Assembly: GCA_020073085.1 (NCBI GenBank)
Contig: JAIQFV010000002.1
Coordinates: forward strand, 195,586 to 259,585
Direction of reading: 5' to 3'
Source: Terriglobia bacterium
GTDB taxonomy: Bacteria > Acidobacteriota > Terriglobia > JAIQFV01
Length of the DNA stretch: 64,000 nucleotides
Under the pieces are notes generated by a model, which saw only the letters and a list, made by a program, of their open reading frames with translations, was not told the origin of the DNA and made no database searches. Shown here piece after piece: positions 31,429-47,901 of this stretch (its first letter is position 1; every line of letters begins with the position of its first letter). The translations under genes and the position numbers were made by a program.

Positions 31429-33066
31429 CGACTCGAATTGACGAGCCTCTTCGAGCGGGACGAGCCTCGTGCCGTTATCGGCAACCCCAAGAAGCCCCCG
31501 ATAGAATGAGTGGGCCTGGGACTCGTCGCCGCTCGCGCGTGCCGCCCGCGCAGCCCCCAGCAGGCTATTGAAGCGCCTCGGGTATGGATCCAGTGACCGC
31601 TTGTAGGCTGCGAGCGCCTCCACGGGATGCTTCTGCTCCAGAAGAAGGTCTCCCAAGAGTTCAAAAGCGGGTAAAGTGGGGGCGGGAGTCACGGCGGGCT
31701 TGGGGGTTGAAACCTCAAGCTCGGCAGCCTGTCGCAACAGCGCCACGCTTGATTCGCTGTCTCCGCTTGCGTGCGCGAGCCATGCCCCTACCTCAAGACG
31801 AAGAATTCGAATTTGGCGCGCAAAGAGATCCTCGCCTGTCTTGCCGGCTGAAGTTTCGAGCTCCTCCAGACGCCTGGCGGCCCGTTGAGCCTCGTCGACC
31901 TTTCCCAAGTGCGCCGCCCCGAGACCGCGGGCAAACCACGTGACAGCCTCTGGCCACGTAAAACGGTCCCAGTTAAGGATCGGGGGGTCGCGGGGAACCA
32001 GCATTGCCGCTTCGCTCCAGGCCCGTCGCTCCAAGGCATATCGCGCCTGGGTGGAAGCCAGGTGAAAGGCTGTTTTGAAGGTGGGTTCCAGTTGTGCCAT
32101 TCCTCGCAATCGTTTCAACTGCTCAGCGGCTTCATTGCCCGCACCTTTCTGCAGATAGGCATAGATGAGGTATTCAATGGCGTGTGGAAACTCGTCCCAA
32201 ACGAACTCCCCATGGTCGCCGGCGGGATATTTCAGGGCGGCCTCCGCAGCTTGCAGGTTTCCCCGTATCACTCGGTCCCAGTCTCCGAGGCGGGTATAAA
32301 TGTGGGTCGGCATGTGAAGCGCATGGGGGTTGTGGGGAGCGACCGTCTCATACTTGCGGACGATCTCCAGCGATTCTCTCTCCCGGCCTGGCACATCATT
32401 GGCATGTATCAAGTAGTGCATGGCCCCCGGGTGCTCAGGGTTCTGCTTGTACACCGCCAGGAGTAGCCTGGCAGCGCGCTCGGAGTGCTCGCGCGAGACG
32501 CTATCGGAAGGTGCGGTGGCGAGAAGCGCCAGTGCGTAGAAGGACGCCGCCTCGGGGTCATGCGGGTATGCGAGGTACACCGCTTCCATTGCCTCCTCCC
32601 ACCGACGGATTCGCTGCCAATAATCGGACGACGCGGGCTCGCGGAAGAACGCCTCCGCGGCAGCCACGAAGAGGCGCTCCCGCTTCGTGGGCGGCTCCAG
32701 CGCCTTTGCCTTCTCCACTTCATTCCATCCGTGTCGGAGGTCCTCGGAACTCGGCCGCGTGGGCCAGAGCGGTTGAAACAGAGTCATCGCGATCCCCCAG
32801 TGCGCCATCGCACACCGCGGATCGGCCCTGGCGACCTGCTCGAATACTTCCCTGGCCTGCGGGTAGGTCATGTGGTGAAGCAACAAGGTCGCTCGATTGA
32901 ATTCCACCTGTGCTTGTTTGGAGCAGGAGACCGGGAAGTTTACCGTCCCCAGGTCGTGCCGAGCGTGCGGCGGTACCTGAGTTGCCCCGGATGGGACGCT
33001 GGCAAACAGGACCAGCGCCAACACCACGGCAGAGCGCCAAAGGGAACGATAGAGCCTGGAATGCAT
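31417..33066 (-). CDS. Exported TPR-repeat protein
   Basis: This protein of about 549 residues starts at the ATG at 33066 (MHSRLYRSLWRSAVVLALVLFASVP, signal peptide). The upstream in-frame ATG at 33123 reads into the preceding gene. TPR-like helices recur throughout: FNRATLLLHHMTYPQAREVFEQVARADPRCAMAHWGIAMTLFQP, KRERLFVAAAEAFF, GAMHYLIHANDVPG, and near the end LLEQKHPVEALAAYKRSLDPYPRRFNSLLGAARAARASGD. The family is common in Acidobacteriota and related phyla, with unknown partner. At 1.65 kb it is unusually large for cassette cargo and shares its cassette with the AHSA1-like gene. Confidence 0.8.
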   Translation of the reverse strand: MHSRLYRSLWRSAVVLALVLFASVPSGATQVPPHARHDLGTVNFPVSCSKQAQVEFNRATLLLHHMTYPQAREVFEQVARADPRCAMAHWGIAMTLFQPLWPTRPSSEDLRHGWNEVEKAKALEPPTKRERLFVAAAEAFFREPASSDYWQRIRRWEEAMEAVYLAYPHDPEAASFYALALLATAPSDSVSREHSERAARLLLAVYKQNPEHPGAMHYLIHANDVPGRERESLEIVRKYETVAPHNPHALHMPTHIYTRLGDWDRVIRGNLQAAEAALKYPAGDHGEFVWDEFPHAIEYLIYAYLQKGAGNEAAEQLKRLRGMAQLEPTFKTAFHLASTQARYALERRAWSEAAMLVPRDPPILNWDRFTWPEAVTWFARGLGAAHLGKVDEAQRAARRLEELETSAGKTGEDLFARQIRILRLEVGAWLAHASGDSESSVALLRQAAELEVSTPKPAVTPAPTLPAFELLGDLLLEQKHPVEALAAYKRSLDPYPRRFNSLLGAARAARASGDESQAHSFYRGLLGVADNGTRLVPLEEARQFESRKH

Positions 33067-33565: not shown

Positions 33566-33581
33566 ACTGACTCCTTTGAGC

Positions 33582-33655
33582 AGATAACGAACAGCGCGTC
33601 ATCCGACGGCGCGTTCTTGTTCCTTGCGCCGGTCGGGTGGACGCGCGGGATAGAC
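33582..33655 (-). other. attC site, common array type
   Basis: The core is AGATAAC and the partner GATAGAC is degenerate. Arms GCGCGTCATCCGACGGCGCG and GCGCCGGTCGGGTGGACGCG match those at 34822, 38007, 41246, 45427 and 47226. Confidence 0.8.
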
Positions 33656-33664
33656 CGTGAGAGA

Positions 33665-34042
33665 TTAGGGTTTTCGTTTCCGATACTGGACGCCCGCCAG
33701 CCCCTTAAAGTCTGCATCTTGTGTCCACAGAGTCGCATCGTGCACCCGCGCAGTGGCCAAAATAATGCTGTCTGCCATCGGCAATTTGGCCTCGTGGCTG
33801 ATCCGGGCCGCTTCCAAAGCAGTGCGGGAGTCAAGATCAACCACGGTGCCTTGCTGCATAACCGCCACGGCCTGCAGTGCTTGACCTTCGTCTCGCTGTG
33901 TAAGGACTCGTTTGAAAACTCCGTAGAGCGTCAAGGAAGGCACCAGAAGGTCTTCTGTCTGTTCGATGGCGGAAGCGAAGAAGGAGGCGTTGGGACCATT
34001 GGCAAAGTACTCCAGCCACGCACTCGAGTCGACAACATTCAT
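33665..34042 (-). CDS. vapC: VapC-family PIN-domain toxin
   Basis: This 125-residue PIN-domain ribonuclease has acidic active-site residues in MNVVDSSAWLEYF (Asp5), a central acidic helix, LPMADSIILATARV (Asp) and LWTQDADFKGL (Asp), giving the usual four-acid Mg2+ site. Its start overlaps the antitoxin stop by 4 nt (ATGA). Toxic RNA cleavage is the family activity; the target RNA is not predictable. It lies immediately before the attC at 33582-33655. Confidence 0.92.
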   Translation of the reverse strand: MNVVDSSAWLEYFANGPNASFFASAIEQTEDLLVPSLTLYGVFKRVLTQRDEGQALQAVAVMQQGTVVDLDSRTALEAARISHEAKLPMADSIILATARVHDATLWTQDADFKGLAGVQYRKRKP

Positions 34043-34805: not shown

Positions 34806-34821
34806 GACTTTGCTCTCGTCC

Positions 34822-34888
34822 GCCTAACGACCAACGCGTCATCCGGGACTCCGCTCTTTGGGCTGGTCGGGTGCATGCGCGGTTTGAT
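34822..34888 (-). other. attC site, common array type
   Basis: The core GCCTAAC (34822-34828) is opposed by GTTTGAT (34882-34888). Arms CGCGTCATCCGGGA and CTGGTCGGGTGCATGCGCGG match the array's common type. Confidence 0.85.
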
Positions 34889-34969
34889 GTCGCCACTCGA
34901 CGCCAGCCAGCCTTATCCCCGGGGGATCGTGTCACCCTGGGCCAGGCTTTCCGGATCGAGACGGAATCG

Positions 34970-37994: not shown

Positions 37995-38006
37995 AGAGTC
38001 TCGTCA

Positions 38007-38080
38007 GCCTAACGTCCAGCGTGTCACCTGACGGCGTGCTTTTGCTCTTTGAGCCGGTCGAGTGCACGCTCGGGTTAGCC
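38007..38080 (-). other. attC site, common array type (best example)
   Basis: The core GCCTAAC (38007-38013) is opposed by GTTAGCC (38074-38080). Arms GCGTGTCACCTGACGGCGTG and GAGCCGGTCGAGTGCACGC fold into an imperfect hairpin with a T-rich middle. Confidence 0.9.
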
Positions 38081-38095
38081 TGATACGACGAGCCA

Positions 38096-41237: not shown

Positions 41238-41245
41238 ACGACGTC

Positions 41246-41321
41246 GGTCTAAGGTCTGGCGCGTCACCCGCCCGGCGAGCTTGTGTTTCTCGCGCCGGTC
41301 GGGTCCACGCGCGGGTTAGGC
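41246..41321 (-). other. attC site, common array type
   Basis: The core GTCTAAG and GTTAGGC (41315-41321) bound arms GGCGCGTCACCCGCCCGGCG and CGCGCCGGTCGGGTCCACGC. The HigA stop codon lies inside the GCCTAAC core. Confidence 0.88.
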
Positions 41322-41681
41322 GGCGACGTAGGGTTGAATGAGTATTTCGGCCGGAATGTCGAGACCTGCGTGCAATCGCCTTATCATCTCCAATGACAAG
41401 GGCCGCCTGCGGTTGAGGACCTCCGCCACCCGCGCCCTGCTTCCTATGTAAGGCTCAATATCACGACGGGACAACCCCCGACTTTCCATGTAATAACGGA
41501 TCGCTTCGATGGGATCCGGGGCGGGGATGGAGTAATGCTGTCGTTCATAAGCCTCCACCAGCGTCGTTAACACTTCCAAACGATCTCCCGAGGGGGTGTT
41601 TGGCGTCGAGTCAAAGAGACGCTTAATCTCCCCCAGTGCAGCGGTGTAATCAGCCTCGGTTTTGATAGGACGGACGTTCAT
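41316..41681 (-). CDS. higA: HigA-type HTH antitoxin
   Basis: This 121-residue antitoxin has N-terminal NVRPIKTEADYTAALGEIKRLFDSTPNTPSGDRLEVLTTLVEAYERQHY, the HigA leader pattern. An XRE helix-turn-helix follows: IRYYMESRGLSRRDIEPYIGSRARVAEVLNRRRPLSLEMIRRLHAGLDIPAEILIQ. It pairs with the HigB gene 9 bp upstream (toxin-first order, typical of higBA). The stop overlaps the attC core, so higBA is a two-gene cassette. Confidence 0.92.
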   Translation of the reverse strand: MNVRPIKTEADYTAALGEIKRLFDSTPNTPSGDRLEVLTTLVEAYERQHYSIPAPDPIEAIRYYMESRGLSRRDIEPYIGSRARVAEVLNRRRPLSLEMIRRLHAGLDIPAEILIQPYVAA

Positions 41682-41690
41682 ACCCTCTCC

Positions 41691-41984
41691 TCAAATCAAG
41701 CTTCCATCAATCTTGTCGCACTCCGAATGGGTCCCAACAAACCGGATGTAAACAATACCAAACTGATACTGTACCGCCACCACCAGGCGGTATTGGTTGC
41801 CCTTAATATTGAACACGACCCGGTTCTTAGCGAGGATGCTGGCGTTACGATATACGCTCTTGAGGTCCGCTGGTGATTTCCATGTGGCATGTACGGCATC
41901 TTGATACCAAGCCTGCAACGCCTGCCGTGCATGGGGATGCCTTTCCCAGAAGCGTCGCAAGGTCTTGAGAGCAATCACTCGCAC
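41691..41984 (-). CDS. higB: HigB-type mRNA interferase toxin
   Basis: This protein of about 97 residues starts from the GTG at 41984 (VRVIALKTLRRFWERHPHARQALQAWYQD), the conserved HigB start. The upstream ATG at 42041 would add 19 unrelated residues. The core is WKSPADLKSVYRNASILAKNRVVFNIKGNQYRLVVAVQYQFGIVYIRFVGTHSECDKI, the full RelE-superfamily HigB signature. The role is ribosome-dependent mRNA cleavage, neutralised by HigA (family knowledge). Confidence 0.92.
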   Translation of the reverse strand: MRVIALKTLRRFWERHPHARQALQAWYQDAVHATWKSPADLKSVYRNASILAKNRVVFNIKGNQYRLVVAVQYQFGIVYIRFVGTHSECDKIDGSLI

Positions 41985-42015
41985 GAGAATATTGTATGCT
42001 GCTCCCAAATGGGGA

Positions 42016-42474
42016 TCAAGGGGAATGACAGCCTTTTCCACGCCACTCCTTCAACAGATTCTCCTGTGCCTTTTGTTTCGCCAGGGCTCCCCCCAGAAAG
42101 ATTTCAATCCGCTTATCGAGTGCCCGGACCAGGCATTCCTCCGTAAACCCGGCGTCCTGCTGATAACTTTTCGACATCGGCCCCGCCTTGCCCGCACGGT
42201 AATATTCCCTGAGCTTACTGCGATGCTTCGTGAAGTTCGCCTTGACGTGTTCCCTGACGACTGAATGGAGGTACTCATGCACGCCACCATTACTGCCAGG
42301 GCTTTCGAGGGTGTAATAATAATTCTCGTACCTCTCGGGCACGTTCGCCAGCGTTGCCGCCATCATCTGCCGGGCCTTGAGCCTGACCGGGTGCATGGCT
42401 TTCCCCGGAACCTGCTTGTCGTAGCCCGTCGCATTGAGAAACGCAAATACGCGAATCCTTTCATAGCACCCTAG
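42016..42474 (-). pseudogene. Truncated HEXXH metallopeptidase-like gene
   Basis: The frame is open from just after a TGA at 42475-42477 to the stop at 42016, encoding YERIRVFAFLNATGYDKQVP, then LESPGSNGGVHEYLHSVVREH with an HEYLH zinc motif, and FTEECLVRALDKRIEIFLGG. No start codon exists upstream in frame; ATG at 42396 would discard conserved-looking N-terminal sequence. The zinc-binding segment survives, but the protein's front part has been cut off at the attC side. It resembles DUF4932-type putative peptidases (tentative). Probably non-functional. Confidence 0.6.
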
Positions 42475-42488
42475 TCACGCCTCCCACT

Positions 42489-42605
42489 GCCTAACGACCT
42501 TGGCGTTCAGCTGCGGCGCCGGTGCGCGAATGCGCACGCGGCTCAGTAGCCGATCTTGCCGCAGCCGGGCCGCGAGGCGCCGTCAGCTGCAATGCGTTGT
42601 TCGCC
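42489..42605 (-). other. attC recombination site (117 bp)
   Basis: The core GCCTAAC (42489-42495) opposes GTTCGCC (42599-42605). Arms CCTTGGCGTTCAGCTGCGGC and GCCGTCAGCTGCAATGCG pair with one short bulge. Confidence 0.8.
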
Positions 42606-42724
42606 GGTTCGTCTTTCAAGTACGTCCACTTTCGAGCCAGCATTTCGACCGTGATGGCTGCGACCATGCTCGTACACAGGCTTCACGCTAGCCAGCCAAG
42701 CCGGAATCGCGGGCGCGTGGGGAA

Positions 42725-44362
42725 TCAGGGCCGCGTGTAGGTGATCCGGCAGACAGGCACCTGGAACACGTCGAAGCCGACGACAGGCACGGTTCCATTC
42801 CCCTGGAGCGCCTTGTTCAGCCGGTCCAGGGGGATTCCACCGCGGAAGACGGGAACCCGGCCGGTGTGGACCCTCGAGAGCTCCTCGAGGATCTCCTGGC
42901 GCGATGTCCAATTGCCCATGCTTTGCGTCGTCGCATCGGCCCAGGCCTTGAGTCCAGGGGCCAGCTCGACGAGGTCGAGCACCGGAGCCTCGCCCGCGTA
43001 GAAGACGCCCTCGACCTGGGCTGTGAAATCATCGGGATCCGGTGCGCCGCGGTAGTAGCGGAAGGAGTTCACCTCCTTGGCGTTCCGGAGGGGGGCTAAA
43101 TCGGCCTCCGTGAGCGTCGCGGCGGTGACCTGTCCGAGATTGGCGCAGGTCTGCTCGGGCCCGCCCCAGATATGCCGCTGCTTCCCGGCGGAGAAGCTTC
43201 CGGCGTCGTCGAGATTGACCAGCGCCGATCCCGTGCCGTCGAGCGTCGCGTGCTGCGATCCGGGATAGTAGCAGAACGCCCCTTCGCCCCGGATGTAGTA
43301 CTTCTCGTATTTGAGCCGGAGCAGCGACTCGAAGGTCTTCCGCGCCCGAGCCTTGTTTTCGGGGGAGGCATCGTTCCAAAGATACCGGGTCAGCAGGGTG
43401 ATGCCCTTGCCTTCGCGCAGCGTCCAGGCGTGCCACTCGTCGAGACCGCCCGTGGCGTCCGGATGGGGTTCCGCCATCACCTCGAGCGTGGTCTGGAACA
43501 TCCGGTCCTTGTGGCGCAGGGGAAACTCGGGATAGCGATCGTTGCCCTGGTCGTCGACGAACGCCTTGGCGATCGAGCTGGTGTTGTGGAGGTCTCTCTT
43601 CGTCAGCTTCCCGCCATGGCGGAACCGCGGTCCCCAGTACCCGGTCTTGGGATCCTGGCTCTCATAGACCCACTGGAGCAGCGTGCGCTTCCACTCGGGC
43701 GAGAAGGCGTACAGGTGGTTCCTCTCGACGAGGTTCCCTTCCCTGGTGTACGAAAGAAGGTCGCGGATGAAATGGAAGGAGCTCTCGGGAAGCTTCGAGG
43801 CGACCCATCCGATATGGCCGAGGTCGTCGAGATAGACCTGGAGCTCCTCGGGCGTGTCGATCCGGTCGAAGAACTTCAGAGGATACCTGAGCTGCAGGGG
43901 GCGGCCCGTCTCCTTCGAGAGCTTCTCCAGGTGCTCCAGGACGTTTCCTGTCGGACCCTCCCAGGTGCAGTAAGGGCAGGAATCGTCCATGAACGCTCCG
44001 GTCCGGGGATTCTGGAGGCTCAGGTAGAAGTCCATTTCCTCGTTCTTGTCCGCGAACTTCGGCACCTTGACGAGGCCCTTCCGCGTCTTGAGCTGCTCAT
44101 GCAGCCTTTCGATGCTCGACACGGCCTTCGCGTACTGCCCATGGTCGAGCAGGTAGATGATCCCGACCATCTTGAACTCGAACTCGGCCATGTAGTAACC
44201 CTCTTCCTGACACTCCTTGTTCAGGCGGAACAGGTCGGGGATCCGCGAGGCGCTGTGGCCCCAGAGCCCCAGGATCAGGAGCAGGGTGGTGATCGAGAGA
44301 CCGAGGGTGGCCTTGGCGAGGTTCCTCCTGGTGCGTCGGGGGTTCCGGGCGGCAGACGGCAC
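42725..44362 (-). CDS. Membrane-anchored unknown protein (545 aa), G/C-rich codon use
   Basis: This 545-residue protein starts from a GTG at 44362 with an AAGGAGG ribosome site. A single N-terminal transmembrane anchor (LAKATLGLSITTLLLILGLWG, about residues 15-35) is followed by a large extracytoplasmic part. Visible features are DDSCPYCTWEG (CxxC), an aromatic-rich RGEGAFCYYPGSQHATL region, HIWGGPEQTCANLGQ and DEWHAWTLREG. Helical content suggests an alpha/alpha-toroid-like fold, which is speculative. I do not recognise the family. Third codon positions are strongly G/C compared with neighbours, suggesting foreign origin. It follows the barrel fragment by 23 bp. Confidence 0.7.
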   Translation of the reverse strand: MPSAARNPRRTRRNLAKATLGLSITTLLLILGLWGHSASRIPDLFRLNKECQEEGYYMAEFEFKMVGIIYLLDHGQYAKAVSSIERLHEQLKTRKGLVKVPKFADKNEEMDFYLSLQNPRTGAFMDDSCPYCTWEGPTGNVLEHLEKLSKETGRPLQLRYPLKFFDRIDTPEELQVYLDDLGHIGWVASKLPESSFHFIRDLLSYTREGNLVERNHLYAFSPEWKRTLLQWVYESQDPKTGYWGPRFRHGGKLTKRDLHNTSSIAKAFVDDQGNDRYPEFPLRHKDRMFQTTLEVMAEPHPDATGGLDEWHAWTLREGKGITLLTRYLWNDASPENKARARKTFESLLRLKYEKYYIRGEGAFCYYPGSQHATLDGTGSALVNLDDAGSFSAGKQRHIWGGPEQTCANLGQVTAATLTEADLAPLRNAKEVNSFRYYRGAPDPDDFTAQVEGVFYAGEAPVLDLVELAPGLKAWADATTQSMGNWTSRQEILEELSRVHTGRVPVFRGGIPLDRLNKALQGNGTVPVVGFDVFQVPVCRITYTRP

Positions 44363-44385
44363 TAAAACGCCTCCTTGAGCTTGAT

Positions 44386-44649
44386 CTATTTCTGGACGTC
44401 CTCGTCGGCGTTCAGGGCGAAGCCGGTGACGAGGTCGAACTCCTGCTTGTCGTTCCTGGGATCGGGATTGAAGTAGAACGCGCTGTTGGCGCCGAGCGTC
44501 CAGCTGGTCTCGTCGTCGTAGCCGATGATCGGCTGCACGCCGAAGCCCCGGCGCTCCGCCTCGTCCGCTGCCATGGCCGCGGAGGGCAGGCCCGCGAGGA
44601 GCAGGGCCAGGAGCCGGGGAGGGATCGAATGGGGCGGGGAATCGGGCAT
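44386..44649 (-). CDS. Short outer-membrane-barrel N-terminal fragment
   Basis: An 87-residue frame starts MPDSPPHSIPPRLLALLLAG, with a signal peptide ending AAMAAD. It continues RRGFGVQPIIGYDDETSWTLGANSAFYFNP and QEFDLVTGFALNADEDVQK before a TAG. The pattern (P-x-I-x-Y-x-x-ETSW-x-x-G) is the first strand pair of surface-antigen/BamA-like barrels, so the remaining barrel appears to be missing. It shares the G/C-rich codon bias of the following 545-residue gene, with which it is probably co-acquired. Confidence 0.55.
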   Translation of the reverse strand: MPDSPPHSIPPRLLALLLAGLPSAAMAADEAERRGFGVQPIIGYDDETSWTLGANSAFYFNPDPRNDKQEFDLVTGFALNADEDVQK

Positions 44650-44708
44650 GTGCGCCTTCCTCAGGGGTTCCGGGGCCTCAGGGATGCTTCTTCGGGCCTG
44701 GCTTCCGC

Positions 44709-45413
44709 TTAGCCGGACCCTCCGATGAGCAAGGTTCGAATCCACTCACTCGTCACCGCCTGACTCACCTGTTTACCACGCCCGTCTTTGTCGGTCGGGT
44801 TGGCGCCGCGTTCCAGCAGGAGCCTGATGATGCCCGTCTGCTGCTGGCGAGCGTGCTCAGAACCGCTCCCTCCTCGCCCAGTGGTTTGAACGGCAAGGTG
44901 CAGGGGCGTCGAGCCGGACTTGTTCGGCGCCCTCGGGTTGGCGCCGCCATCCAACAGAGCCCGGACTGCTGGCAACGACCGGGTTCGCACCGCTCGGTGC
45001 AGGGGCGCCACGCCGCTCTTGTCCAAGGCATTGGGGTCTGCGCCAACCGACAAGAGGTACTCGATCGTCTCCGCCTGTGCCGACGGTTCCCAGTGGTTGG
45101 CGTCCGCCGCGTAGTGAAGGGGTTGGGCGCCGCGGCGATTCTTCGCGTGCCAATCCGCCCCGTGTGCGACGAGAAGCATGGCGATCGGACGCCGAAACGC
45201 GGCGGCAGCCATATGGAGAGCCGTGTCGCCGGCGTAAAGGTAGTGGGCGATTTCGGTGAAAAAAAAGTCGGGTGCCCCATGGCGAGCAGCGCCAACCTCA
45301 GCCGGCGCTGTAGCAAGAGTGGGACTGGCCGCCAGTCGGCGGGACACTTCGTCGATCTCGCCGTTCACGACATGTCGAACGAACTCAAGAAACACCGACT
45401 CCACCTTTCGCAT
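44709..45413 (-). CDS. Ankyrin-repeat protein (cassette)
   Basis: This 234-residue protein has clear ankyrin repeats: GDTALHMAAAAFRRPIAMLLVAHGADWHAKNRRGAQPLHYAADANHWE, AETIEYLLSVGADPNALDKSGVAPLHRAVRTRSLPAVRALLDGGANPRAPNKSGSTPLHLAVQTTG and GIIRLLLERGANPTDKDGRG. These are four to five units with TPLHLA and GADPN consensus. The N-terminus (VESVFLEFVRHVVNGEIDEVSRRLAASP) is the usual cap. Protein-protein interaction role. The start is 14 bp from the attC at 45427; the stop sits in a lone half core (GGCTAAG). Confidence 0.9.
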   Translation of the reverse strand: MRKVESVFLEFVRHVVNGEIDEVSRRLAASPTLATAPAEVGAARHGAPDFFFTEIAHYLYAGDTALHMAAAAFRRPIAMLLVAHGADWHAKNRRGAQPLHYAADANHWEPSAQAETIEYLLSVGADPNALDKSGVAPLHRAVRTRSLPAVRALLDGGANPRAPNKSGSTPLHLAVQTTGRGGSGSEHARQQQTGIIRLLLERGANPTDKDGRGKQVSQAVTSEWIRTLLIGGSG

Positions 45414-45426
45414 CGGTTTCTCTTCC

Positions 45427-45504
45427 GGCTAACGTCTGGCGCGTCACCCGGCCGACGCACTTTGGCTTCTCGCGCCAGCCGGGTGCACACGCGGGTCGTT
45501 AGCC
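45427..45504 (-). other. attC site, common array type
   Basis: GGCTAAC (45427-45433) and GTTAGCC (45498-45504) bound arms GGCGCGTCACCCGGCCGACG and CGCGCCAGCCGGGTGCACACG. The restored stop of the upstream membrane protein lies within the site. Confidence 0.88.
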
Positions 45505-46057
45505 GACCTTGGTTCCTAGCAGGGCTCCTTGTTCCAACTTCAAGCGTTCATAGTGCCGACGGGCGTATTCCAACACAGCCTCAGTCGGAAAATTAAGAAG
45601 CGACGTGTGCTCAGAAAAATCCCCTTTTTTTCCAGGCCTCCATTACTGGTCGGTAACTCGCCACATGAGAAAAAAGCATAAGCAGGCATTCCGGCACTTT
45701 GGGCTCTTCAAGAAGATCACCGTGGGCTGTCACTAGTTGCGCCATCTCTTCGTTCAGAGGCATAAACACAGTAGTCATCCATTCTCGCCACGCTGTTGCC
45801 TCAACCGCCGTGGGGTGATCGGAACTTCCCCAAAAGGATCTTCCCGGCCGGTATTTTCCCCGGAACGCTTCCCACACGCGGGTCGATGCTTCAGACAACG
45901 ACAAAAGAGGACCATACAGATCGCGAAGCTGTCGTTCTATCCGGTCGAGGCGCGACTTTCTTTGGGCCAAACGCAAGTTATTCCAATAGGTGGCCAGATA
46001 GCCGATCACCGCGAGCAGTATCGTAACGGATAGTGTCCCTACCTGTCTCCAATCCAT
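45499..46057 (-). pseudogene. Membrane protein cassette interrupted by a frameshift in an A7 run
   Basis: The first frame (46057 to 45611) encodes a one-helix membrane protein (MDWRQVGTLSVTILLAVIGYLATYW) with a charged domain (NNLRLAQRKSRLDRIERQLRDLYGPLLSLSEAS, coiled-coil-like) and stops at EAWKKRGFF. Omitting one A from the seven-A run at 45625-45631 restores GDFSEHTSLLNFPTEAVLEY and LKLEQGALLGTKVG, ending TAA at 45499-45501 inside the attC core, the canonical cassette end. The intact protein would be about 186 residues. The cause is sequencing error, true mutation or slippage. Function unknown. Confidence 0.8.
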
Positions 46058-46082
46058 CGAAACTCCATGTCCTCTCTTGTCC

Positions 46083-46181
46083 GGCTAACGCCGCCGCTGA
46101 GGTGCGGCGGCTATCAAGATTCTCCAGTGTAGCGCCGACCCGAGTCTTCCTCCAGGCCGCCGCCAGCTCAAGCGGTTGGTG
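46083..46181 (-). other. attC recombination site (99 bp)
   Basis: GGCTAAC (46083-46089) faces GTTGGTG (46175-46181). Arms CCGCCGCTGAGGTGCGGCGG and GCCGCCGCCAGCTCAAGCGG pair strongly. Confidence 0.82.
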
Positions 46182-46251
46182 AGCCGCCCCCCACAAGCGC
46201 ACTTCCTATTTGAGATTCCAACACTGTTCCTTCTGATCAGCGGCATAGCAC

Positions 46252-47178: not shown

Positions 47179-47225
47179 TACCGAGCAGCTCCTTCCAAAA
47201 TATTTCTCAAGCCAGTCATAGGTGC

Positions 47226-47298
47226 GGCAAACGACCAGCGCGTCACCCGGCGGCGCGCTTGTGTTCTATGCGCCGGCCGGGTGACGCGCGGGTTAGGC
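47226..47298 (-). other. attC site, common array type
   Basis: GTTAGGC at 47292-47298 and the degenerate GGCAAAC at 47226-47232 bound arms GCGCGTCACCCGGCGGCGCG and GCGCCGGCCGGGTGACGCGC, the strongest hairpin of the common type. Confidence 0.88.
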
Positions 47299-47305
47299 CC
47301 TTCTC

Positions 47306-47665
47306 TCAGATGGTCTGCTCCGCACGCAGGAGGGCACCCAGCTTTCCAAGCACTTCACCAACGACGCTTCCAGGGAGCTTGCATATCAGGCTCGCTTGGC
47401 GCGCGCGCCAGTCCAAGCACTTGACTTGGTCCGAAAGCACGGCCCCGGATATATTCAGACCTTCCGGGAGAATGACTTCGAAGGGATAACCTTTCACCTG
47501 GCTGGTAATAGGGCAGAGAAGCGCAAGACCCACCTTGCCATTGTATGCGCGCGGTGAAAGAACCACCGCAGGCCGTCGGCCAGCCTGCTCATGTCCAGCT
47601 TGGGGATTCAACGTAATCCACACGGCATCCCCCTGCGCCGGCACGAAAGCGGTGGGGGTTACCAT
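47306..47665 (-). CDS. mazF: MazF-family endoribonuclease toxin
   Basis: This 119-residue MazF/PemK-type toxin shows FVPAQGDAVWITLNPQAGHEQAGRRPAVVLSPRAYNGKVGLALLCPITSQVKGYPFEVILPEGLNISGAVLSDQVKCLDWRARQASL, the complete SH3-like MazF pattern with GHEQ.GRRPAVVLSP, CPIT and SDQVK..DW. The start overlaps the mazE stop by 7 nt, so translation is coupled. It is followed immediately by an attC. Confidence 0.93.
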   Translation of the reverse strand: MVTPTAFVPAQGDAVWITLNPQAGHEQAGRRPAVVLSPRAYNGKVGLALLCPITSQVKGYPFEVILPEGLNISGAVLSDQVKCLDWRARQASLICKLPGSVVGEVLGKLGALLRAEQTI

Positions 47666-47901
47666 GACTCACGTCCTGTCGCGCTTCCGGTATCCACCTC
47701 CCCGTGCAAATTACGCCGCCTCACTTTGGCAAGCAGTTGATTCAAGGAATAATCGGGTACGGCCAAGGGCGTCACAACCAACTTGCCCTTTTCGAGCGTC
47801 ACCTCAACCAACGACCCCTGGGCTATCCGTGAGTCAGAAGCCAAAGACTTGGGTATGCGGAGAGCAAGACTGTTTCCCCATTTACGAACTGTAACACGCA
47901 T
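47659..47901 (-). CDS. mazE: MazE-family antitoxin
   Basis: This 80-residue AbrB-like antitoxin shows MRVTVRKWGNSLALRIPKSLASDSRIAQGSLVEVTLEKGKLVV, the MazE DNA-binding hairpin motif (WGNSLALRIPK). The C-terminal acidic or variable tail (YSLNQLLAKVRRRNLHGEVDTG) binds MazF. A GGGAGG ribosome site and an upstream palindromic operator support the start at 47901. It is the first gene at the right end of the array. Confidence 0.93.
   Translation of the reverse strand: MRVTVRKWGNSLALRIPKSLASDSRIAQGSLVEVTLEKGKLVVTPLAVPDYSLNQLLAKVRRRNLHGEVDTGSATGRESW

Follow-up and report, generated by a model that had tools for sequence, protein, structure and literature searches.

Probable remains of a horizontally acquired Omp85 barrel operon in an integrase-less cassette array of a Terriglobia bacterium

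Two adjoining genes, a remnant of an Omp85-type barrel gene and an intact gene for a 545-residue protein, lie together among integron-type cassettes in the draft genome of a Terriglobia bacterium (GCA_020073085.1). By the window we mean the whole 64,000-nucleotide stretch of contig JAIQFV010000002.1 that was analysed, and all positions in Table 1 and in the text refer to it. The window contained no match to RNA families.

Table 1. Coordinates of the insert and of the cassette array around it.
Feature	Position	Strand	Remarks
Host-type attC	33579..33659	-	60.3 bits
Host-type attC, weak	34819..34892	-	28.3 bits
Host-type attC	38004..38084	-	54.4 bits
Host-type attC downstream of insert	41244..41325	-	74.5 bits; after 126-aa gene and HigB-type pair
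attC-like site of other type, 3' of 545 gene	42489..42605	-	GGCGAAC ... GTTAGGC; no match to host attC model
545-aa gene	42725..44362	-	intact open frame, GTG start; one N-terminal membrane helix and alpha/alpha-toroid body, as modelled
Omp85-type barrel gene remnant	44362..44649	-	ATG at 44649; ~70 N-terminal and ~20 C-terminal codons, ~270 codons missing between
In-frame TAG stop in kept barrel tail	44386..44388	-	Tyr at this place in both relatives
Half core GGCTAAG (R''-like), ankyrin gene end	44708..44714	-	plus strand CTTAGCC; TAA at 44709-44711 is the ankyrin stop
Ankyrin-repeat gene, cassette upstream of insert	44709..45413	-	Pfam Ank, 1.6e-26
Host-type attC before ankyrin cassette	45424..45505	-	77.6 bits; in the model's training set
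Host-type attC	47223..47302	-	71.5 bits

A preliminary description, made from the letters alone, had proposed a G/C-biased two-gene insert at 42725-44649. Its coordinates were right, and GC3 (0.86-0.92) lay well above that of the host (0.68 ± 0.05). Specifically, GC3 was 0.861-0.862 in the 545 gene and 0.916 in the barrel remnant (95 codons). As a reference we used 202 open reading frames of at least 150 amino acids, sampled over 300 kb of this genome in 15 stretches, which had a mean of 0.677 and a standard deviation of 0.052. The 545 gene lay above every one of them (202 of 202), so that the match to host composition named beforehand as counting against the proposal was not seen. The third positions had also been described as unlike those of the flanking cassettes, and a codon-usage check of five neighbouring genes (ankyrin, 148-aa, alpha/beta-hydrolase, HigB and 126-aa) agreed, with GC3 between 0.54 and 0.72.

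Homologues of the 545 gene were found in 5 of 200 relatives of the host (E ≤ 0.001) and in 3 of 396 genomes drawn from its phylum (E ≤ 1e-10), the host being counted in both. In a collection with one genome per species, 34 loci encoded relatives of the protein, and the family is widespread over many phyla, among them Bacillota, Fibrobacter, Raymondbacteria, Bacteroidota, Sedimentisphaerales, KSB1, Spirochaetaceae, Desulfovibrio-like and Pleomorphomonas genomes. The best two relatives, at 59-60% identity, came from metagenome-assembled genomes of Ca. Raymondbacteria RIFOXYA2_FULL_49_16 (L006) and Fibrobacter sp. UBA1313 (L007), and two acidobacterial relatives shared 35-37% identity. In a tree of 29 proteins, the window protein grouped with that of Fibrobacter (99/97) and then with that of Raymondbacteria (98/95). 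Grouping it with three acidobacterial proteins was rejected by the AU test (p-AU 0.000283). Vertical inheritance within the clade, the other outcome named beforehand as counting against the proposal, was thus ruled out by rarity among relatives and in the phylum, by GC3, by the tree and by the AU test.

These results make the foreignness of the insert to the host genome solid, and foreign GC3 together with phylogeny bears out the earlier suggestion that both genes came together from another lineage. The G/C bias of the insert does not come from the two closest genomes (L006 and L007), because the 545 genes of both have a GC3 of about 0.50. A donor search of 150 genomes drawn from the phylum of the Raymondbacteria relative returned two matches, both already known (L006 and L007). 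We also considered carriage by a virus or plasmid and dropped it: 104 stretches in viral contigs matched a pattern and none was confirmed, and neither the 545 protein nor a distant DNA search with 42470-46200 matched any plasmid.

The identity of the operon comes from its two closest relatives. In both L006 and L007, a padR gene, a gene for a barrel protein of 358 or 360 residues and the 545 homologue follow one another on one strand, with a gap of 0 and -1 bases between barrel and 545 homologue; in the window this gap is -1. Both full-length barrels match PF01103 (1.3e-11 and 1.2e-11), and neither has a match to POTRA families at E ≤ 1, so they are not of the POTRA-bearing BamA/TamA type. The Raymondbacteria barrel contains VRGF and that of Fibrobacter LRGF, which we take to be the L6-loop motif of Omp85 proteins, of the type [VL]RG[FY]. 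Judged from these two relatives, by PF01103 and the L6-loop motif, the ancestral barrel would belong to the Omp85 superfamily. The window remnant has no Pfam match of its own at E ≤ 1 (ORF 44386-44745) and is classed as a remnant only. A possible padR tail ahead of the barrel start was rejected: one frame gave a Lys/Arg-rich tail and a stop, and by eye this was unlike the PadR ends of four relatives.

The first gene had been called an N-terminal fragment of a barrel. Its N-terminal part is indeed kept, but so is its C-terminal end, and only the middle is missing. Residues 26-72 of the remnant share 72% identity with residues 20-66 of the Raymondbacteria barrel (E 1e-22), and its last 25 codons share 56% identity with residues 338-358 (E 3e-5), both E-values coming from a two-sequence comparison only. 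Since both ends align to the relatives, about 270 internal codons between them are missing. Where exactly the deletion junction lies is ambiguous, as residues 69-82 of the same relative also give a weak alignment with the surrounding stretch. By these alignments the first gene reads as a whole barrel gene that has lost its middle and retained both ends, as known from one draft assembly. The kept tail ends in IKLKEAF and a stop (44362-44364) that overlaps the GTG of the 545 gene by one base. It also contains AGGAGG, and likely holds the ribosome-binding site of the 545 gene.

Two other accounts of the shortened barrel have to be weighed. The deletion could be an assembly error, with the operon complete in the cell, as the draft genome is split into 68 contigs. 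Yet a stop has also replaced a Tyr codon in the retained tail, the contig runs to 452,697 bases, and nothing else in this genome matches the barrel; we consider such an error improbable. Alternatively, the short frame might be functional in its own right, as a secreted peptide of 87 residues that would also provide translational coupling to the 545 gene. It is open from 44649 to the TAG at 44386, begins like a signal peptide and has kept a high GC3, but most of the barrel is gone and neither full-length relative has a short form, which makes this unlikely. We prefer decay of the barrel gene. In the neighbouring 545 gene, 66 of 66 near-invariant columns, those shared by at least 26 of its 27 full-length relatives, are kept.

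We characterized the surrounding array with a covariance model of host attC sites, built from 20 sites found in this genome and in a second genome belonging to the same genus. Filters were off for searches of the window, and default filters were on for the C8 and C1 stretches described below, the background stretches and the flanks. The model found six host-type attC sites of 28-78 bits, all on the minus strand, between 33579 and 47302 (~14 kb), whereas neither the 15 background stretches nor the two flanks of the window gave a match at E ≤ 1. TIGR02249 matched nine times in the genome but never on the contig of the window, and only the match on C8 passed the cut-off. The array has six attC sites and its contig no integrase match, and it is therefore a CALIN (at least two attC sites and no nearby integron integrase). 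The insert lies within a cassette array, as first described, with attC sites on both sides; what the array lacks is an integrase on its own contig.

The integrase-bearing locus lies elsewhere. A 20 kb stretch of C8 (L092, G000:C8:267000-286999) holds 14 clear plus-strand attC sites, the majority of which belong to the training set. With an integrase above the TIGR02249 cut-off and 14 attC sites of one family, this is the host's own integron. Another stretch (C1; L093, G000:C1:570000-589999) has three attC sites, one of them in the training set. We dropped the idea that lower attC scores betray decay of the window array, because most C8 sites trained the model and scores of sites outside the training set overlap: the three clear ones of C8 score 79.6, 69.0 and 36.3 bits, and the five of the window 74.5, 71.5, 60.3, 54.4 and 28.3 bits. 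One result speaks against this picture: the bare core GTTRRRY was not enriched in the window (80 matches; at least 80 in 88 of 100 shuffles). Generic inverted-repeat scans were of little use, one giving three places, one of them (31707-31859) outside the array pattern, and a looser one giving 12 places in the 64 kb, compared with 43 over 300 kb of background.

A HigB-type toxin gene (PF09907, 1.2e-30) and then a 121-aa partner (41316-41681) occupy 41316-42041 on the minus strand, the stop of the partner lying inside the next attC. By eye, two small minus-strand genes at 47306-47901 resemble a MazF/MazE-type pair, with the attC at 47223-47302 next, and a 125-aa minus-strand frame at 33665-34042 resembles a PIN-domain (VapC-like) toxin, with the attC at 33579-33659 next.

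The insert had been said to follow a lone half core, GGCTAAG near 44711, instead of a full attC, and this was confirmed: the half core is present and the host attC model found nothing there up to E 5, nor any match at E ≤ 1 between 41325 and 45424. The 7-mer is one base off a core, and with one mismatch it is weak evidence alone; a second gene of the array likewise has its stop within its R'' core (41316). On the other side, the attC-like site 3' of the 545 gene gave a DNA fold (42486-42615) with a z of -2.25, and 2 of 200 shuffles folded as well. By the usual definition of a cassette (core junctions plus one 3' attC), the insert has a 3' attC-like site and no 5' core junction, no GTTRRRY being present on its 5' side.

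Two routes of entry could account for these edges. The barrel-545 pair may have arrived as one cassette with the attC-like site, after which the attC of the ankyrin cassette was lost and its half core left behind. The attC-like site lies ~120 bases after the 545 gene, in the expected orientation, folds better than most shuffles, and is not of the host type, as expected of a foreign cassette. A two-gene cassette of 2 kb would be unusual, however, the 5' junction is lacking, and the site had no convincing relative: its matches in 101 genomes amounted to its own locus plus matches of 20-40 bases, with none in plasmids. We hold this route possible at somewhat less than even odds. Alternatively, illegitimate or homologous recombination at the attC of the ankyrin cassette, without an integrase, would explain the core-like GGCTAAG at the end of the ankyrin gene and the missing attC behind it. 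Against this, the insert edges show no conspicuous target duplication or terminal repeat. The best direct match between them was reached by 271 of 1000 shuffles with cheap gaps and 1824 of 2000 with strict gaps, and the best inverted match by 51 of 2000 and 1054 of 2000. We entertain this second route with reserve. Both are compatible with a decayed foreign operon.

The 545 family had been thought undescribed, and the searches agree: it has no convincing match in Pfam or NCBIfam, though it is widespread. The window protein gave one weak hit (0.066), weak hits from one or two of 28 members scattered over unrelated families, and none of the members' Pfam matches at E ≤ 1 was to a toroid family. 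Among solved structures, no sequence matched the 545 profile at E ≤ 1, and one hit from a single-sequence search (0.78) was at chance level and rejected. PADLOC had no match for the protein, and a reading as a defence protein was dropped. Some relatives deviate from the full-length form. Four loci (L032, L034, L036 and L037) have the homologue only as short frames of 120-228 aa, which are broken genes or sequence errors, and two distant relatives (L004:654-2033 and L005:1072-2337; 28% and 26% identity over part) lack the C-terminal region in the alignment.

That the protein is membrane-anchored, as first described, is supported by the hydrophobic N-terminal segment that 27 of the 28 members possess. 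Basic residues before this segment outnumber those in the next 15 residues in 18 of the 28, and are tied or reversed in the other 10; the window protein has 5 before and 2 after. The body of the protein is thus likely, but not firmly, placed outside the cytoplasm. Structure prediction and homology search had both been suggested for this protein, and yielded a confident model, 34 related loci and a weak likeness to toroids. A model built on 3 sequences reached a pLDDT of 52 and was set aside as poor, whereas the AlphaFold model from 28 sequences had a mean pLDDT of 91.1 and a pTM of 0.86. Residues ~101-501 of this model resemble alpha/alpha toroids in most of the structural matches listed. The best match in VIA was a prenyltransferase beta subunit (Z 12.6, 254 residues aligned, rmsd 4.0), just under the caution line of about Z 13 that applies to helical models, and the 50 rows listed spanned Z 8.4-12.6 at 7-12% identity. 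Foldseek found no match at E ≤ 0.001, its best being a GH76 mannanase (E 0.018), and no catalytic motif was identified in the protein.

Genes next to the 545 relatives offer a further hint of function. The 52 neighbours scanned, out of 118 listed, included 6 PadR, 4 response-regulator domain, 2 Omp85 and 2 DUF6544/DUF6920 proteins. This neighbourhood would fit a regulated envelope function, with the adjoining barrel as the exception. The functional link between barrel and 545 protein is thin because Omp85 barrels make up only 2 of the 52. We would read the 545 protein as an envelope enzyme anchored in the inner membrane, with the barrel as an optional outer-membrane partner. In Mangrovimonas (L021:9617-10720 and L031:9530-10633) the 545 homologue overlaps a DUF6544/DUF6920 gene by 4 bases, a partner different from the barrel. 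By eye, the distant relative in L005 is flanked by a glycan-hydrolase-like gene on one side and a transporter gene on the other.

Taken together, we read the insert, with a probability of roughly 0.65, as the remains of a horizontally acquired operon of padR, a POTRA-less Omp85 barrel and the 545 gene in an acidobacterial CALIN, in which the barrel was gutted and the 545 gene left intact. The operon would have come from a distant lineage, its relatives reading padR, POTRA-less Omp85 barrel and 545-type protein. The barrel gene has lost ~270 internal codons and has a stop in the kept tail, which probably provides the ribosome-binding site of the 545 gene and overlaps its start. The 545 protein, intact, is probably still made. 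It may be a periplasm-facing toroid anchored in the inner membrane, most likely an enzyme whose substrate is a glycan or lipid of the envelope. In the donor lineage it would have stood beside an outer-membrane pore, and here it would work without one, as it apparently does in barrel-less relatives.

The insertion is an event of a familiar kind. It shows DNA of a distant lineage within the cassette array of an acidobacterium, at a stage where one gene has decayed and its neighbour is conserved. Of greater interest is the protein family, which is widespread, has a confident model, and has a POTRA-less Omp85 barrel beside its two closest relatives. Tentatively, and against our own better odds, we suggest that the family comprises new alpha/alpha-toroid enzymes, anchored in the inner membrane and facing the periplasm, that have spread horizontally over many phyla including Bacillota. 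With the POTRA-less barrel they might form a two-membrane envelope system in Fibrobacter and Raymondbacteria, the enzyme having outlived the pore in the integron array studied here.

Our literature search found nothing resembling this operon, which does not by itself show its absence from print. The padR-barrel-545 operons of Fibrobacter sp. UBA1313 and Ca. Raymondbacteria RIFOXYA2_FULL_49_16 are like the window in that the 545 gene follows the barrel at once, whereas the window has no padR, has lost the middle of the barrel and has a GC3 of 0.86 against 0.50. Omp85 proteins without an N-terminal extension ('noNterm') are mentioned in PMC4104836; the two full-length barrels are alike in matching PF01103 without POTRA, and the remnant differs in lacking ~270 codons and any Pfam match. 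The 545 model resembles alpha/alpha toroids such as prenyltransferase beta subunits, terpene cyclases, the complement TED and GH76 (aligned with residues 48-386, Z 8.4), but differs from these families in its low sequence identity, the absence of a toroid Pfam match and its N-terminal membrane helix. Families of attC sites by taxon, one of them for Acidobacteria, appear in PMC8352920. CALINs are described in PMC12444791, and the array in the window is alike, with its six host-type attC sites in ~14 kb and no integrase match on the contig; it differs in holding a GC-rich foreign operon that lacks a normal cassette boundary on one side.
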